Assembly (NCBI RefSeq): GCF_011390835.1
Contig: NZ_JAABRQ010000003.1
Span: 1 to 64,000, forward strand
Reading direction: 5' to 3'
DNA from: Hydrogenophaga sp.
Lineage (GTDB): Bacteria; Pseudomonadota; Gammaproteobacteria; Burkholderiales; Burkholderiaceae_C
Length of the DNA: 64,000 nucleotides
The translations under genes were made by a program, and so were the position numbers. The notes below the pieces were generated by a model. It was not told the origin of the DNA. It did not search any database and worked only from the letters and a program-made list of their open reading frames with translations. Shown here one piece after another: positions 2,979 through 32,450 of the stretch. The first letter of the stretch is position 1. Every line of letters starts with the position of its first letter.

Positions 2979-3659
2979 TCAAGGGAGGTTACGGCCCGAC
3001 TTGTCCCAGAACGCAGAGGCGCGCAGAAGGCGGTCCAGGTCTCGCTTGGCCTGCTTGGGATCGAGGTTGGCCGGAAAACGCATCATCCAGTTGCCCAGGG
3101 GGTCGACCACATAGAGGTGGTCCTCCAGGCGCTGTCCGGGCGCGGGCTCAAGCCAGCTGGCGATCTCGACGGCGTCGACCTGCAACACGTCGGCGGCTGC
3201 AGTGGCCAGTCGCAGCGGCTCGGTGAGCGGTGCCCCTCCGGTGCGAAGCCAGACCCAGTCGAGCCGGTCTTTTTCACGGCCCAGGGTTTCGCGCAGCTGG
3301 CGCTGCAGCAGCAGGTGGTCCAGGCATGCGGCGTTGCACGCGCTGTCGGCCACGCTGATCAGCAGCCACTGGTCTTTCAGGCTCGCCAGCGGCACGGTCT
3401 GTCCCGCTGCGTTCACGCCGGTGAAAGCGGGAATCGGACGTTGTGGCTGGATCAGCTCACCGTAATTGCGACGTCCTTCGGGACGGATCACGTAATAGGT
3501 GAAATACGACGCAATGACGGGCGTGGCACACACCAGGAACAGTGCCAGCATCTTCCATCGACCTGAGCGGGTGACGGCGGCCGAGCGCGCGCTGGCCTGA
3601 TCCAGCTGCGGCAAGCTGTGCACGGTCAGGGTCAGGGGTTCATCAGGCAGCTGGGCCAT
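2979..3659 (-). CDS. Membrane-anchored SCO-like protein of the oxidase operon
   Basis: A 226-residue protein with one N-terminal membrane helix (around residues 38-57, MLALFLVCATPVIASYFTYY) and a periplasmic domain. The start at 3659 is chosen because it overlaps the end of SURF1 by 17 bp and removes a low-quality extension. Burkholderiales oxidase operons often carry such a protein here, usually annotated only as hypothetical or cytochrome oxidase-associated. The domain looks thioredoxin/SCO-like: it keeps a Cys pair with SCO spacing (CNAAC, compare CPDVC) and a later DHLYVVDPLGNW segment that aligns with the SCO segment DHSAGSYVYDPQG. I infer a thiol or copper role in CuA or CuB assembly; this is not established by the sequence alone. 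Confidence 0.8.
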   Translation of the reverse strand: MAQLPDEPLTLTVHSLPQLDQASARSAAVTRSGRWKMLALFLVCATPVIASYFTYYVIRPEGRRNYGELIQPQRPIPAFTGVNAAGQTVPLASLKDQWLLISVADSACNAACLDHLLLQRQLRETLGREKDRLDWVWLRTGGAPLTEPLRLATAAADVLQVDAVEIASWLEPAPGQRLEDHLYVVDPLGNWMMRFPANLDPKQAKRDLDRLLRASAFWDKSGRNLP

Positions 3660-4380
3660 GGGACTTGGGCTTTCGGCGAGGGGAGAGAATTTGGAACCAG
3701 AGGTAAAGCAGAGCGGCCAGCGCAAACAGCGCGAACCACTGCACGGCGTAGCCATAGTGCTTCTGCACGCCCGCATTCACGCGGGGCCACTCGCGCAAAA
3801 GGCCGTCTTCGGTGTCACCGGTCTGCATGACCGAAGCATCCAGAAGGCGCAGACCCGACGCTTCGGCCATCGTAGCCACATCGATATTTTGCCGGATCGG
3901 TCCTGGCGTAGGCTCGCCGAGCTCGTATAGCTTGGCTGGTGGCGGGGCCAAACGGCCGTCGATGACTACCTCGCCAGCGGGCGTGTCCACGACGGGTATC
4001 CGACTGCGGTCGGTGAAGTCGCGCGGTGTCCAACCTCGCTGCACCAGCACGGCCTGATCGCTCCCGCTCAGCCGCAGCGGTGTGACCAGGAAAAATCCGG
4101 TGCGGCCATTCATCTGGCGGTTGTCGAGAAACACGCTGGCCTCAGGCAGCCATTGGCCGCGCAAGCGCACCGATCGATGAATCTCTGCCTGCAGGTCACT
4201 CGAAGCGAGCAAACTCTGCTCATTCAGGGCAGGCAACCCGGATCGCTGGTCCACCTTGGCCTGCAGCGCTTCCTTCTGGGCCGCCCGGTCTAGCTGCCAG
4301 CGACCGAGCGATGCGGTGATCGCCAGGGTGAGCACAGTGGCTGCCGTCACGACCCAGAAGCGCCGTCCTCGGGTACTCAT
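3643..4380 (-). CDS. SURF1 family cytochrome oxidase assembly protein
   Basis: A 245-residue inner-membrane protein with the SURF1 layout: an N-terminal helix (WVVTAATVLTLAITASLGRWQ) carrying the family LGxWQ motif, a large periplasmic domain, and a C-terminal helix (YAVQWFALFALAALLYLWFQ). SURF1 proteins help insert heme A into subunit I. The domain has the typical RGWTPRDF and GEPTPGPIRQN elements. The ORF track extends 87 codons upstream, but the ATG at 4380 immediately precedes the basic residues and first helix, and the extension runs antisense into the divergent DUF2909 gene. Confidence 0.93.
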   Translation of the reverse strand: MSTRGRRFWVVTAATVLTLAITASLGRWQLDRAAQKEALQAKVDQRSGLPALNEQSLLASSDLQAEIHRSVRLRGQWLPEASVFLDNRQMNGRTGFFLVTPLRLSGSDQAVLVQRGWTPRDFTDRSRIPVVDTPAGEVVIDGRLAPPPAKLYELGEPTPGPIRQNIDVATMAEASGLRLLDASVMQTGDTEDGLLREWPRVNAGVQKHYGYAVQWFALFALAALLYLWFQILSPRRKPKSHGPAA

Positions 4381-4425
4381 GGCCAGATCCCCACCCGGGC
4401 GGGCGCGGCGCCGATAATGGTGGCC

Positions 4426-4668
4426 ATGAAATATTTTGTGATCGCTGGCTTCGTGGCCATCATCGGCAGTCTGGGCGCGGCGCTGGTCTTCATGATGCGG
4501 GGCGGCCAGGGGGGGGATGAAACTACCGACGCCGCCACCCCTCCCCGCAACGGCATGGCTCGCGCCCTGGCGTTCCGGGTGGGGTTTTCGATTTTGCTGT
4601 TTCTGATCGTGCTCATCAGTTATTGGATGGGCTGGATCCAACCCACCGGATTGCCGGTTCAGCCCTGA
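4426..4668 (+). CDS. DUF2909 family twin-transmembrane small protein
   Basis: An 80-residue protein with two hydrophobic helices (about residues 3-24 and 50-69) joined by a Gly/Asp/Thr-rich linker. This matches the DUF2909 or twin-transmembrane family often found beside cox3 and SURF1 in betaproteobacteria. The second ATG (4426) gives the usual MKYFVIAGF-type start; the ATG at 4417 would add three residues. It is the only plus-strand gene within the oxidase operon, divergent from SURF1 with about 45 bp between starts, and ends at a bidirectional terminator. Its role is unknown; an oxidase-associated membrane function is inferred from position only. Confidence 0.85.
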   Translation: MKYFVIAGFVAIIGSLGAALVFMMRGGQGGDETTDAATPPRNGMARALAFRVGFSILLFLIVLISYWMGWIQPTGLPVQP

Positions 4669-4752: not shown

Positions 4753-5634
4753 TCACATCCAGTAGACCAGGATATAAAGCCCCAGCCACACCACGTCCAC
4801 GAAGTGCCAGTACCAGGCCGCGCCTTCGAAACCAAAATGGCTCTTGGCGCTGAAGTGACCTTTCTGCAGGCGCAGGGTGATGAACAACAACATCAACATG
4901 CCTACAAAAACGTGGAAACCGTGGAAGCCGGTCAGCATGAAGAAGGTAGAGCCGAAGATGCCCGAGCTGAGCTTGAGGTTCAGGTCGGTGTAGGCGTGGT
5001 AATACTCGTAGCCCTGCACGCAGAGGAAGACGATACCCAGCAACACGGTCATCCACATGAAGCCGATGGTTTTGGCGCGCTGGCCCGCCTGCAGGGCGTG
5101 GTGCGCAATGGTCAGCGTCACGCCTGAAGTCAGCAGTAGGGCAGTGTTGATGGTGGGCAGCCAGAATGGACCCATGGTCTGGAACGGGTCGACGATGCCA
5201 CCCGGCGACGCGGTAGCACCAGCCTGCACGCTGGGCCAGACCGCGCTGAAGTCAGGCCAGAGCAGCGAGTTCTCAAAATTACCCAGGGCCGGCACCGAGT
5301 GAGTGCGCGCCCACCAGAGAGCGGTGAAGAAGGCGCCAAAGAACATCACTTCGGAGAAGATGAACCAGCTCATGCTCCAGCGGTAGGACAGGTCAATCTT
5401 GCGACCATACAGACCGCTTTGGCTTTCACCGACCGCATCGCGGAACCACTGAAACAGCACCACAGACCAGAACGTCAGACCGAAGGCCACCGAGTAGGCG
5501 CCCCAGCCTGCGCCGTTCACCCATTGCCCCGCGCCCAGAATGACGAAGAACAGACCGATGGAGGCCATCACTGGGTGCCGCGAAGGGCCCGGAACAAAGT
5601 AGTACGGCGTGGTGCCGTGTGCGGCTGAAGACAT
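4753..5634 (-). CDS. ctaE: Cytochrome c oxidase subunit III
   Basis: A 293-residue seven-helix subunit III of the heme-copper oxidase. The N-terminus MSSAAHGTTPYYFVPGPSRHPV is typical for proteobacterial COX3, and later motifs include FMLTGFHGFHVFVGM near the C-terminus and WYWHFVDVVWLGLY at the end. The ORF-track start lies 120 codons upstream and runs through the DUF2970 gene in another frame; the ATG at 5634 is the family start. The subunit stabilises the catalytic core and may form an oxygen channel. Confidence 0.96.
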   Translation of the reverse strand: MSSAAHGTTPYYFVPGPSRHPVMASIGLFFVILGAGQWVNGAGWGAYSVAFGLTFWSVVLFQWFRDAVGESQSGLYGRKIDLSYRWSMSWFIFSEVMFFGAFFTALWWARTHSVPALGNFENSLLWPDFSAVWPSVQAGATASPGGIVDPFQTMGPFWLPTINTALLLTSGVTLTIAHHALQAGQRAKTIGFMWMTVLLGIVFLCVQGYEYYHAYTDLNLKLSSGIFGSTFFMLTGFHGFHVFVGMLMLLFITLRLQKGHFSAKSHFGFEGAAWYWHFVDVVWLGLYILVYWM

Positions 5635-5699
5635 GCTCACTCCTAAACGCTTGTCGCTTGTTTGAATATTGAAATACCGAAATTCGCGATGGTCCGCGG

Positions 5700-5909
5700 T
5701 CAGCGAACCACCCAGTTGACGAGCGCAATCAGGCCGCCCACAAACAACAAGGCCATGACGACGCCGACCACGATGATGTGGATCGGATTCAGGCTGGCAA
5801 TGTCTTTTTGGTAGTCGGCCTGGCGGCGCACACCCAAAAATCCCCAGAGCACGGCCTTGACCGTGCCCCGAATCGAGCCCTTGCGCTGGTGGATCGGCAG
5901 ATCGCTCAA
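5700..5909 (-). CDS. DUF2970 family small membrane protein
   Basis: A 69-residue protein with a basic N-terminal segment (HQRKGSIRGTVKAVLWGFLGVRR) and one C-terminal helix (IHIIVVGVVMALLFVGGLIAL). It matches the DUF2970 family, which is typically encoded between cox11 and cox3 in betaproteobacteria. Its ATG overlaps the cox11 stop by 4 bp, indicating translational coupling. The function is unknown; a role in oxidase assembly is inferred from its conserved position. Confidence 0.88.
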   Translation of the reverse strand: MSDLPIHQRKGSIRGTVKAVLWGFLGVRRQADYQKDIASLNPIHIIVVGVVMALLFVGGLIALVNWVVR

Positions 5910-6535
5910 ACAGCCCCCGCCAACGCTTTGGGTGCCAGCACGGGCGTGCCGGCCACATCCTGTGGCGCGGCAGGAACCTTGCCGCCCACTTCAAAGAAGG
6001 TGTAGGACAATGTAATGGTGGACACGTCCTTCGGCAGCTTAGGGTCGATCACGAACGCGACCGGCCATTCTTTCTTTTCACCCGGCGCCAGGGTGTACTG
6101 CGTGAAGCAGAAGCACTCAAGCTTGTTGAAATGCGCCATGGCCTGTTTGGGCGCGTAGCTGGGAATCGCCTGCGCTGCCATGGTGCGGTTCTGAATGTTC
6201 TGGAACTCGTAGAGCACTGTGGTCAGTTCACCCGGATGTACCTGCAACGAACGAACCTCAGGCTTGAAATGCCAGGGACCGCGCACGTTGACATCGAATT
6301 CCACCGTGATAGTACGCGAGCGGTCAACCTGGGTGTTGGAAGGCAGCTTGGGCTTGAGACCAGGCACCTCGCGCTCGGACAGCGCGAGGATGTTGATGCC
6401 AGTGACCTCGCAGATGGCGCGGTAGATCGGGACCAGCGCGTATCCGAATGCGAACATGCCCAACGTGATCACGCCGAGCTTGCCCACCATTTTGAAATTT
6501 TCGCGCTTCAGTCCCATGGTCGATGCTCTGTTCAA
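5906..6535 (-). CDS. ctaG: Cytochrome c oxidase assembly protein CtaG/Cox11
   Basis: A 209-residue protein with one N-terminal helix (VGKLGVITLGMFAFGYALVPIYRAIC) and a periplasmic immunoglobulin-like domain. It delivers Cu(I) to the CuB site of subunit I. The diagnostic copper motif ECFCFTQ is present, as is the family YTFFEV element near the end. The start could be the first Met or the Met at position 7 (MGLKREN); I keep the first. It follows the 37-residue assembly gene by 16 bp and overlaps DUF2970. Confidence 0.95.
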   Translation of the reverse strand: MNRASTMGLKRENFKMVGKLGVITLGMFAFGYALVPIYRAICEVTGINILALSEREVPGLKPKLPSNTQVDRSRTITVEFDVNVRGPWHFKPEVRSLQVHPGELTTVLYEFQNIQNRTMAAQAIPSYAPKQAMAHFNKLECFCFTQYTLAPGEKKEWPVAFVIDPKLPKDVSTITLSYTFFEVGGKVPAAPQDVAGTPVLAPKALAGAV

Positions 6536-6680: not shown

Positions 6681-8300
6681 TCAGCCCACCACTTTGGTGG
6701 CAGCCGCATTGAGCTTGGGCGGGTTCTCAAAGGTATGGAATGGCGCTGGCGAGGGAACTTCCCACTCCAGGCCTTCGGCACCTTCCCAAGGGTTCTGCGG
6801 CGCTTTTTCACCCTTGCCACGCATGGCGGGGATGATCACGGCAACGAAGAAGTAGACCTGGGCAATGCCGAAGGCAAACGCGCCCACCGAAGCGACAGCG
6901 TTGAAGTCGGCGAACTGCATCGGGTAGTCGGCGTAGCGACGGGGCATACCGGCCAGACCCAGGAAGTGCATCGGGAAGAAGGTGATGTTGAAGGAAATCA
7001 TCGACCACCAGAAGTGGATCTTGCCCTTGGTTTCGCTGTACATCACACCGGTCCACTTGGGCAGCCAGTAATAGATGCCGGCGAACATGGCGAACAGGGA
7101 ACCGGCGACCAGCACGTAGTGGAAGTGAGCCACCACGTAGTAAGTGTCCTGCATCTGGATGTCGATCGGCGCCACCGACAGGATCAGGCCGGTGAAGCCA
7201 CCCAGCGTGAACACGAAGATGAAGCCAACCGCCCATAACATAGGGGTCTCGAACGTCATCGAGCCTTTCCACATGGTCGCGATCCAGTTGAAGATTTTCA
7301 CGCCGGTGGGCACGGCGATCAACATCGTCGAGTACATGAAAAACAGCTGGCCGGTCACCGGCATGCCGGTGGTGAACATGTGGTGGGCCCACACGACAAA
7401 GGACAGGATGGCAATCGAGCCGGTCGCGTAGACCATGGAGGCATAGCCAAACAACTTCTTGCGCGAAAACGCGGGCACCACCTGACTCACGATGCCAAAG
7501 GCCGGCAGGATCATGATGTAGACCTCGGGGTGGCCAAAGAACCAGAAGATGTGCTGATACATCACCGGGTCACCGCCGCCGGCGGGGTTGAAGAAGCTGG
7601 TGCCGAAGTGACGGTCGGTCAGCGTCATGGTGATGGCGCCGGCCAGCACGGGCATGACGGCGATCAGCAAATAGGCGGTGATCAACCAGGTCCAGCAGAA
7701 CATGGGCATCTTCATCAGCGTCATGCCGGGGGCGCGCATGTTGAGGATGGTCACGATGATGTTGATCGAGCCCATGATGGAGCTCGCGCCCAGAATGTGC
7801 AGCGCGAAAATGCCAGCGTCCATGCTGGGGCCCATTTGCAGCGTCAGCGGTGCGTAAAGCGTCCAGCCAGCGGCGGGTGCGCCACCGGGCATGAAGAACG
7901 AAGAAACCAGCATCAGCGCGGCGGGGATCATCAGCCAGAAGCTGAAGTTGTTCATGCGCGCGAACGCCATGTCCGAGGCGCCGATCTGCAACGGCACCAT
8001 CCAGTTCGCGAAGCCCACGAAGGCCGGCATGATTGCGCCGAACACCATGATCAGGCCGTGCATGGTGGTGAGCTGGTTGAACAGCCCCGGGTTCACCAGC
8101 TGCAGGCCGGGCTGGAACAGTTCGGCACGGATCAGCAGTGCCAGCACGCCGCCCACCATGAGCATGGTGAAAGCGAACAGCAGGTACAGCGTCCCGATGT
8201 CTTTGTGGTTGGTCGCGTAGACCCAGCGACGCCAGCCAACGGGAGCGTGGTGGTCGTGGTCATGGCCGTGGGCGTCGTGGTGGTCGAGAACTGCACTCAT
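6681..8300 (-). CDS. ctaD: Cytochrome c oxidase subunit I
   Basis: The 539-residue catalytic subunit, with twelve helices carrying heme a, the heme a3-CuB centre and the proton channels. The CuB ligand region FGHPEVYIMILPAFGI and the double-His motif AHHMFTTGM are present, as are the conserved YATNHKDIGTLY start and the VVAHFHYVL heme-ligand region. It reduces oxygen to water and pumps protons. A His/Asp-rich N-terminus (HHDAHGHDHDHH) precedes the first helix and could bind metal, although such tails are common. It lies 44 bp downstream of coxB. Confidence 0.98.
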   Translation of the reverse strand: MSAVLDHHDAHGHDHDHHAPVGWRRWVYATNHKDIGTLYLLFAFTMLMVGGVLALLIRAELFQPGLQLVNPGLFNQLTTMHGLIMVFGAIMPAFVGFANWMVPLQIGASDMAFARMNNFSFWLMIPAALMLVSSFFMPGGAPAAGWTLYAPLTLQMGPSMDAGIFALHILGASSIMGSINIIVTILNMRAPGMTLMKMPMFCWTWLITAYLLIAVMPVLAGAITMTLTDRHFGTSFFNPAGGGDPVMYQHIFWFFGHPEVYIMILPAFGIVSQVVPAFSRKKLFGYASMVYATGSIAILSFVVWAHHMFTTGMPVTGQLFFMYSTMLIAVPTGVKIFNWIATMWKGSMTFETPMLWAVGFIFVFTLGGFTGLILSVAPIDIQMQDTYYVVAHFHYVLVAGSLFAMFAGIYYWLPKWTGVMYSETKGKIHFWWSMISFNITFFPMHFLGLAGMPRRYADYPMQFADFNAVASVGAFAFGIAQVYFFVAVIIPAMRGKGEKAPQNPWEGAEGLEWEVPSPAPFHTFENPPKLNAAATKVVG

Positions 8301-8344: not shown

Positions 8345-9550
8345 TCACGGGCGGGCAGCCAGTACCTCGGCAGGCTGCACGAGCCGCTGGGTCTGATTCG
8401 ACCAGCTGTTCTTGGTATAGGTCATCACGGCGGCCAGCTCGGTGTCGGACAACTGCTTCCACGCCGGCATGGCGCCATTGTTCTGACCGTTAAGCAACAC
8501 GTTGATCATCGTGGACTTGTCGGTATCCACCACCACGGCGGACCCATCCAGCGGCTTGATCGGACCAGCTCCCTTACCCTGCGCGCCGTGGCACGCCAGG
8601 CAGTTGGCGGCATACACCGACTCGCCACGCTGCACCAGATCAGCCAGGTTCCAGACCTTGGACGGGTCGTCTGCCGCAGCGGCCATCGCCTTTTTCTGGC
8701 CATCGACCCAGGCGGTGTACTCGTCAGCGGTCACCACCTTGACGTGGATCGGCATGTAGGCGTGCTCCTTGCCGCACAGTTCAGCGCACTGACCATAGTA
8801 GTCACCCGTCTTCTCAGCGCGGAACCAGGTGTCGCGCACAAAACCGGGGATAGCGTCCTGTTTGACGCCGAAAGCCGGCACCATCCAAGCATGGATCACG
8901 TCGTTGGCGGTAGTGATGATGCGCACCTTCTTGTCCACGGGCACCACCAGCGGGTTGTCGACCTTGAGCAGGTAGTTGTCGGTAGGCGGCGGATTGCCGC
9001 TGCTCGACATCACACGATGGCTGTTGTCCAGGGTGGAGAGAAAGCCGATGCCCTCACCCTCACCCTTGATGTAGTCGTAGCCCCATTTCCACTGCATGCC
9101 GGTAGCCTTGATGGTCAGGTCGCTGTTGGTGGTGTCCTTCTGGGCTACCAGCACCTTGGTGGCTGGCAGCGCCATGCCGATCACGATCAGGAGCGGCACG
9201 ATGGTCCAGCCGAGCTCAACCCAAATTGGCTCGGCCAGCACCTGCGACTTGTGACCCACCGATTTGCGGTGCTTCAGGATGGAATAAAACATCACGCCGA
9301 AAACGATCACGAAGATCACGGCGCAGATCACCATCATGAACCAGTGCAGCCAGTGCTGCTCTTCGGCGATCTTGGTGACTGCCGGCGCAAAGTTGAGCTG
9401 GTTCACGGCCGGGCCACCGGGCAGGTCATTGACCTTCTGGGCCAGGGCGGTGCCCCAGGCACCCGCCGTGAACGCCAGCGCGATGACTGCCGAGCGCCAA
9501 GCCGCGCCTTGTTTCCCTGGATTCACCACCGACTTCATGGTCTTGCTCAC
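8345..9550 (-). CDS. coxB: Cytochrome c oxidase subunit II with fused C-terminal cytochrome c (caa3 type)
   Basis: A 401-residue protein with a signal peptide (ending near GTALAQ), two helices, a cupredoxin CuA domain with the binuclear motif CAELCGKEHAYM, and a C-terminal class I cytochrome c domain with heme motif CLACH at about residue 320. The fused heme makes this a caa3-type electron entry, able to take electrons from another cytochrome c directly. The ORF-track start is a GTG at 9550; an ATG four codons later (9538) is equally possible. It is the first gene of the oxidase operon, and an exact FNR-type palindrome lies 27 bp upstream. Confidence 0.95.
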   Translation of the reverse strand: MSKTMKSVVNPGKQGAAWRSAVIALAFTAGAWGTALAQKVNDLPGGPAVNQLNFAPAVTKIAEEQHWLHWFMMVICAVIFVIVFGVMFYSILKHRKSVGHKSQVLAEPIWVELGWTIVPLLIVIGMALPATKVLVAQKDTTNSDLTIKATGMQWKWGYDYIKGEGEGIGFLSTLDNSHRVMSSSGNPPPTDNYLLKVDNPLVVPVDKKVRIITTANDVIHAWMVPAFGVKQDAIPGFVRDTWFRAEKTGDYYGQCAELCGKEHAYMPIHVKVVTADEYTAWVDGQKKAMAAAADDPSKVWNLADLVQRGESVYAANCLACHGAQGKGAGPIKPLDGSAVVVDTDKSTMINVLLNGQNNGAMPAWKQLSDTELAAVMTYTKNSWSNQTQRLVQPAEVLAARP

Positions 9551-9576
9551 GTTTTCCGCCTCGAAGAATATAAGTA

Positions 9577-9590
9577 TTGATTTATATCAA
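9577..9590. promoter_or_regulatory. FNR-type operator upstream of coxB
   Basis: The sequence TTGATTTATATCAA matches the FNR/Anr consensus TTGAT-N4-ATCAA at all ten specified positions. It lies 27 bp before the first possible coxB start. On the minus strand a TATATT hexamer (9572 to 9567) lies just downstream and could be the -10 box. The operator would then overlap the -35 region, which suggests repression rather than class II activation. That promoter reading is an inference; the palindrome itself is seen directly. Confidence 0.75.
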
Positions 9591-9659
9591 CACCGATTAG
9601 AACAAATTTTTCCGCCTTCGCCCAGCCAAACCTGCCAGCACCGAGCGCGTTTCCCAACT

Positions 9660-15764: not shown

Positions 15765-16433
15765 TCAGCGGAAGCGCGACTGTGGCACCACCGAGAGCTC
15801 GGTGTCCAGGGTGGACAGGTACTTGGCCATCTCACGCATTTCGGCGTGCGAATACTGCTTGGCGATGCCGGACATGATGGCGTTGTTGCGGCCCACCACC
15901 TGGTTGCCCTCGACCGTGTAGGCCTTGAGGGCCACGTACAGGTAGTCAGCGTGTTGGCCAGCCAGCTTGGGATAGCTAGGGTCGATCGGCTTGCTGAAAT
16001 TGGCCCCGTGACAGGACGCGCAAGCGCCTTTTTCAATCAGCGCCGCCGCCGTCACGCTCGCGGCCTTGGGTGTCTCGGGTGCGGTCTTGTCGGCGTGCGA
16101 CGCGTAGTACGCAGCGAGGTCGGCCATGTCCTGCTCGGACAGCGCTGCGGCAATACCGCGCATGGTCGGGTGCTTGCGATCGCCCTTCTTGTAGGCGGTC
16201 AGCGAAGCCACGATGTACTTGTCCGACTGACCCGAAATCTTGGGCACCTTGTGGATTTCCGGGAAGCTGTTCTGGTAGCCCGGAATGCCATGGCAGCCGA
16301 TGCACATCTCGGCTTTCTGTTTGCCGGCTTGCACGTCGCCCGTTGCGCCCTGGGCCATGGCGGCAGTCCCCATCATCGCGAGCGTCGCGGCGGTGACAAG
16401 GGTACGAACGGAGGCGGTCAACAGGTGGATCAT
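15765..16433 (-). CDS. Periplasmic diheme cytochrome c (c4-like)
   Basis: A 222-residue protein with a signal peptide (cleavage after AAMA, near residue 27) and two class I cytochrome domains, each with a heme-binding motif: CIGCH (about residue 44) and CASCH (about residue 138). Axial Met ligands are likely in PTMRGIA and NAIMSGIA. Such c4-like proteins carry electrons to terminal oxidases, so the caa3 oxidase in this window is a possible partner. An exact FNR-type palindrome lies 25 bp upstream of the start. The gene ends at a bidirectional terminator. Confidence 0.93.
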   Translation of the reverse strand: MIHLLTASVRTLVTAATLAMMGTAAMAQGATGDVQAGKQKAEMCIGCHGIPGYQNSFPEIHKVPKISGQSDKYIVASLTAYKKGDRKHPTMRGIAAALSEQDMADLAAYYASHADKTAPETPKAASVTAAALIEKGACASCHGANFSKPIDPSYPKLAGQHADYLYVALKAYTVEGNQVVGRNNAIMSGIAKQYSHAEMREMAKYLSTLDTELSVVPQSRFR

Positions 16434-16457: not shown

Positions 16458-16471
16458 TTGATAAAAATCAA
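16458..16471. promoter_or_regulatory. FNR-type operator between the diheme cytochrome c gene and moxR
   Basis: TTGATAAAAATCAA matches TTGAT-N4-ATCAA exactly. It lies 25 bp upstream of the cytochrome gene (minus) and 103 bp upstream of moxR (plus). On the plus strand TTGATA (16458) and TATATA (16480) with a 16 bp spacer could form a promoter for moxR, overlapped by the site. On the minus strand a TATAAT word lies upstream of the site. In either case the position suits repression better than activation at -41.5, but I cannot place transcription starts. Confidence 0.75.
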
Positions 16472-16573
16472 CTTCCGATTATATAGACCCGATTCGGGGT
16501 CTTCCCGCAATGCCCCCCGCCATGGGCACAGGCCGCCACTGTCCCACCCAGCTGACCTAACCGCACACCCACC

Positions 16574-32405: not shown

Positions 32406-32450
32406 TTGACGCGCGTCAATACAAATGAGAATTGTAGTTATCTACAATTC
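32406..32450. promoter_or_regulatory. Divergent operator region of the iron-type ABC transporter
   Basis: Two perfect palindromes lie side by side: TTGACGCGCGTCAA (32406-32419) and GAATTGTAG-TTAT-CTACAATTC (32429-32450). The stretch ATGAGAATTGTAGTTATC between them resembles a Fur box (about 12 of 19 consensus positions by eye, reading the minus strand). Each arm of the second palindrome contains TACAAT, a -10-like hexamer, one per direction. Iron-dependent control through Fur is plausible for this transporter. The first palindrome has a Crp/Fnr-family layout (TTGAC-N4-GTCAA). Confidence 0.55.

Follow-up and report, generated by a model that had tools for sequence, protein, structure and literature searches.

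Does the palindrome in front of the caa3 oxidase genes of this Hydrogenophaga contig act as an FNR operator, and would it raise or lower expression of the oxidase when oxygen is scarce? We considered this question for the window, by which we mean the whole 64,000-nucleotide stretch of DNA that was analysed, together with its genome and relatives. The oxidase cluster is complete and runs along the minus strand in the order coxB (8345..9550; Pfam COX2, COX2_TM and Cytochrom_C; NCBIfam CoxB), coxA for subunit I (6681..8300; Pfam COX1; NCBIfam CtaD_CoxA), the assembly gene ctaG/cox11 (5906..6535; Pfam CtaG_Cox11), an open reading frame containing coxC for subunit III, whose true start is internal to the frame (4753..5994; Pfam COX3), and then SURF1 (3643-4641), ctaA (1765-2919), ctaB (869-1768) and SCO1/SenC (149-790), the last four assigned by Pfam. 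CoxB combines a COX2 domain with a C-terminal cytochrome c domain, and this fused subunit II, found alongside subunits I and III (Pfam, NCBIfam), bears out the earlier assignment of the operon to the caa3 type. The nearest relatives are from Hydrogenophaga.

The palindrome, TTGATTTATATCAA at 9577-9590, agrees with TTGAT-N4-ATCAA at all ten specified bases, as originally predicted. Read in the orientation of coxB, on the minus strand, it becomes TTGATATAAATCAA and is predicted to span approximately +1 to +14 of the coxB transcript. Its location upstream of coxB also held, with the gap to the GTG start codon measured as 26 bp instead of the 27 bp first given. Two exact matches to the pattern occur in the window, against 0.01 expected from dinucleotide shuffles. 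Over the Hydrogenophaga-like genome (3.67 Mb), the exact pattern was found three times and the reversed control pattern was not found, while TTGAY-N4-RTCAA was found 29 times versus once for the control, which indicates that an FNR-type regulon exists. A further FNR-like palindrome, TTGACGCGCGTCAA at 32406-32419, lies 36 bp before a gene for an ABC-transporter ATPase, with a Fur-box-like AATGAGAATTGTAGTTATC between the two.

We then asked what might read such boxes. The product of L004 (contig C20) has a C-x2-C-x5-C arrangement at its N terminus, a fourth cysteine corresponding to E. coli C122 and the recognition helix LETVSR; it exceeds the NCBI Fnr cut-off and aligns almost end to end with crystallised FNR. 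Judged by these sequence features, L004 is a true FNR that has kept each of the four cluster cysteines as well as the recognition helix. The fnr gene adjoins hemN inside the cbb3 cluster, where boxes are found upstream of uspA and a ccoI-like gene, upstream of ccoN, and in the interval separating hemN from fnr. Among the 14 other gene-facing FNR boxes of the genome, 11 are followed 21-22 bp downstream by an xAxxxT hexamer, the layout of a class II activator, compared with a background of 2.9 percent (binomial tail 4e-15); boxes of ccoN, hemN, ccoI, uspA and haemerythrins have this layout. Class II-spaced boxes were noted before haemerythrin-, small cytochrome c-, DksA- and sulphide:quinone reductase-like genes (L137, L144, L145, L150, L151 and L153).

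The coxB promoter appears to be built on a different plan. Just upstream of the palindrome lies a predicted extended -10 element, TGtTCTAAT (9596..9604, minus strand; TG at 9604-9603, hexamer at 9601-9596). All 40 site-bearing relatives have a TNTAAT hexamer ending 3-6 bp upstream of the box, against a background rate of 0.0006 at that place, and in 39 of them it is preceded by TGn, making it an extended -10. From this spacing we infer that coxB transcription begins with the first bases of the box, so that the box is predicted to overlap the core promoter and start. A scan for the sigma-70 consensus gave no match, as would be expected because an extended -10 without a -35 should escape such a scan.

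The original prediction had instead pointed to TATATT (9572-9567, minus strand), between the box and the coxB start codon, as a possible -10. This now seems unlikely, and TGtTCTAAT is the more plausible candidate. A transcript starting 6-7 nt after TATATT would lose the likely Shine-Dalgarno sequence GAGGCGG (9556..9562, minus strand), of which GAGGC is conserved 7-10 bp before the GTG, and TATATT was rejected as a -10 partly for this reason. It is contained in a leader element, CTTATATT (9567..9574, minus strand), that is conserved with and without the box: TATATT persists even in L023, a relative whose box has decayed, and the box-less genera have a similar AT-rich TTAATTTGAGGC leader, and in several of these a likely -10 lies upstream at a distance of roughly 70-100 bp. 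TATATT is therefore better read as probably part of the coxB leader, and the promoter assignment is corrected in favour of TGtTCTAAT as the likely -10. As a separate observation, a GGG-N4-CCC-like inverted repeat is present in many relatives (L029, L035, L036, L038, L045, L049-L052 and L073), but not in the window; it lies near -43, about 45 bp ahead of the predicted coxB start, which is the position at which a class II activator would sit.

The second exact match in the window, TTGATTTTTATCAA (16458..16471, minus strand), stands 24 bp ahead of a dihaem cytochrome c4-like gene (15765..16433, minus strand) with two CxxCH motifs in two cytochrome c stretches. A predicted -10, TATAAT (16478..16483, minus strand), stands 6 bp before this box, and the resulting layout (TATAAT, 6 bp, TTGATTTTTATCAA) is the same as that of coxB. 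The c4 box is intact in five relatives, and its right half has decayed in five others. The TATAAT and the 6-bp gap are retained in 11/11 sequences whether or not the box is intact, which identifies this -10 independently of the box.

These layouts bear on the direction of control. Were FNR to act on coxB from 9577-9590 as a class II activator, raising caa3 at low oxygen, it would be following the layout of most FNR boxes in the genome and the role that FNR more commonly plays in Herbaspirillum, namely activation (PMC5934665). However, the start would then lie about 41.5 bp past the centre of the box, level with the coxB GTG or beyond it, and the -10 hexamer needed some 21-22 bp after the box is absent at the window coxB and in 39 of the 40 relatives. 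At c4 the sole class II candidate is CAAAAT at +20, which shares bases with the start codon. Class II activation was rejected for both promoters, as the required -10 was not found, and we consider activation of coxB from this site very unlikely. The position of the box relative to the predicted promoter fits a repressor and not a class II activator, and the repressor reading is favoured on this account. Within this one genome, predicted activated and predicted repressed targets can be told apart by where the FNR box stands with respect to the -10.

Among the 31 coxB loci most similar to that of the window, from Hydrogenophaga, Tepidimonas and their kin, 29 retain the coxB box, either exactly or as TTGACATAAATCAA; this is the unbiased figure, per-column conservation being biased in that only motif-matching loci entered it. 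In those motif-matching loci the N4 spacer of the box is likewise conserved, and so this stretch may have an additional role. The exact box occurs in 27 of the 80 named coxB relatives, and a further 8, most of them Tepidimonas, carry TTGACATAAATCAA instead. In a set of 110 genomes sampled across the family, 18 had a box near coxB with no more than one mismatch, versus none in the same sequences reversed, and about half of those 18 boxes are at the same place as that of the window. The box is absent from the Acidovorax, Rhodoferax, Limnohabitans and Variovorax relatives. One locus, L226 (genome G090), has two FNR-type boxes upstream of coxB, of which the distal, TTGATATAAATCAA, overlaps a TACAAT hexamer and the proximal, TTGACATTGATCAA, lies near the coxB start codon.

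This distribution also speaks to two readings in which FNR plays no part. Exact FNR boxes can be silent, and many predicted E. coli sites are unbound (PMC3688515); the palindrome might likewise be a chance match or an inert relic. Such an origin is nonetheless highly improbable given the expectation of 0.01 matches in the window, the retention of the box across genera in which CoxB is approximately 75-85% identical, its fixed spacing to the -10, and a second gene, c4, with the same layout. Alternatively, the palindrome might work in the mRNA, as a 5'-end stem-loop that stabilises the transcript. If transcription began with the first base of the box, the inverted repeat would open the transcript; the spacer, too, is conserved, and the relative MOLA814 retains the palindrome without having FNR. 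Yet the hairpin is weak (-1 kcal/mol), the T-to-C change in Tepidimonas breaks a pair while giving a standard FNR-box variant, and c4 has the same consensus around a different spacer. A hairpin of this strength was rejected as the function of the palindrome, and we give the idea almost no credence.

The presence of FNR was compared with that of the box in 40 genomes, of which just two lack FNR (L023 and L072); these two disagree, which leaves the comparison no more than suggestive. L023 is without FNR and ccoN, and both its coxB and c4 boxes have decayed; TCGATATCAATCGA stands in place of its coxB box. MOLA814 (L072) is also without FNR and ccoN, yet its coxB box and the full context are intact. 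L030, in turn, has FNR and has lost both boxes. The box kept in MOLA814 and the boxes missing from L030 each count against the repression reading, as does the existence of paralogues with a similar recognition helix: the genome encodes at least 14 strong CRP/FNR-type DNA-binding domains, among which L007 and L015 share ETVSR and L017 has ETIAR. These paralogues, together with MOLA814, raise the possibility that a different member of the CRP/FNR family, such as a nitric-oxide-sensing Dnr or an FNR-like paralogue, reads the box in response to a signal that is not simply oxygen. We regard this as unlikely, since both CRP/FNR proteins of MOLA814 have RQRVN helices that do not fit TTGAT, and FNR alone has its gene among the respiratory targets, next to hemN and the cbb3 genes.

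Together, these observations make it likely, in our view, that the palindrome is an FNR operator through which caa3, and c4 with it, would be repressed at low oxygen while cbb3 and hemN are activated. When oxygen is low, FNR carrying its [4Fe-4S] cluster would bind the operator at 9577-9590. As the box covers the predicted start, just downstream of the extended -10, bound FNR would block RNA polymerase and the caa3 oxidase genes would be shut down. From the similarly placed box at the c4 gene, a likely electron carrier would be shut down in parallel, and the same FNR would activate the high-affinity cbb3 oxidase and hemN through class II-placed boxes. The box, its conservation, the FNR protein and both promoter layouts are what the sequences show; we infer FNR binding, the transcription start, repression itself and the role of c4 as electron donor to caa3. 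The bacterium thus probably switches its caa3 enzyme off when oxygen is scarce. The original proposal of FNR-type repression of the high-oxygen oxidase gains support from the genuine FNR, the regulon, the conservation within the clade and the repressor-type position of the box. For the Hydrogenophaga-Tepidimonas clade as a whole, we put at about even the chance of a reciprocal FNR switch obeying a fixed promoter grammar, in which boxes at approximately +6 repress caa3 and c4 and boxes at -41.5 activate cbb3, with the caa3 and c4 boxes confined to the clade and being lost in some of its lineages.

FNR-dependent repression of an aa3 oxidase is already known, and the present caa3 case would be a further, well-supported example of it, in part of the Comamonadaceae. 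The paired operator at c4 is the less expected element. The scheme offers a concrete, testable model for switching between low- and high-affinity oxidases in hydrogen-oxidising Comamonadaceae. A literature search on Hydrogenophaga, caa3 and low oxygen returned no paper on coxB regulation in the genus.

Among better-characterised systems, the cyo oxidase of E. coli, with which the original prediction drew its comparison, is lowered at low oxygen, mainly by ArcA together with FNR. The two cases are alike in that a low-affinity oxidase is reduced when oxygen is scarce; cyo, however, is a quinol oxidase, whereas caa3 is a cytochrome c oxidase. As for box position, 19 of 23 FNR-activated promoters in E. 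coli have the box at -41.5 +/-4, whereas the boxes of FNR-repressed promoters range from -125.5 to overlapping +1 (PMC3688515), and the class II and coxB/c4 layouts of the present genome match these activated and repressed positions, respectively. Direct repression by FNR is established there for fnr (-0.5), can and hisL (-11.5) and ndh (-50.5) (PMC3688515). The predicted coxB arrangement resembles these promoters in that the box overlaps the core promoter or start, consistent with simple steric repression, but the target genes differ, and the starts that were mapped in E. coli are predicted here.

FNR proteins reconfigure the respiratory chain in other Burkholderiales, as proposed here: the Herbaspirillum proteins Fnr1/Fnr3 mainly activate, with cbb3 among their targets (PMC5934665), and in Burkholderia cenocepacia Anr represses cio-1 (PMC11742914). 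In contrast to the present proposal, deletion of anr in B. cenocepacia left cta and caa expression unchanged (PMC11742914), a result that counts against the repression reading for coxB, and the coxB box is missing from many other Comamonadaceae. The nearest parallel is FnrL of Dinoroseobacter shibae, which represses the aa3 oxidase (ctaCBGE, ctaD) and activates cbb3 (PMC5398030), so that in both cases an FNR protein would lower a low-affinity cytochrome c oxidase and raise cbb3 at low oxygen. Whereas that alphaproteobacterial system is known from expression data, the betaproteobacterial caa3 operon described here is known from sequence, and it adds a defined, conserved box on the predicted start and a paired box at c4.
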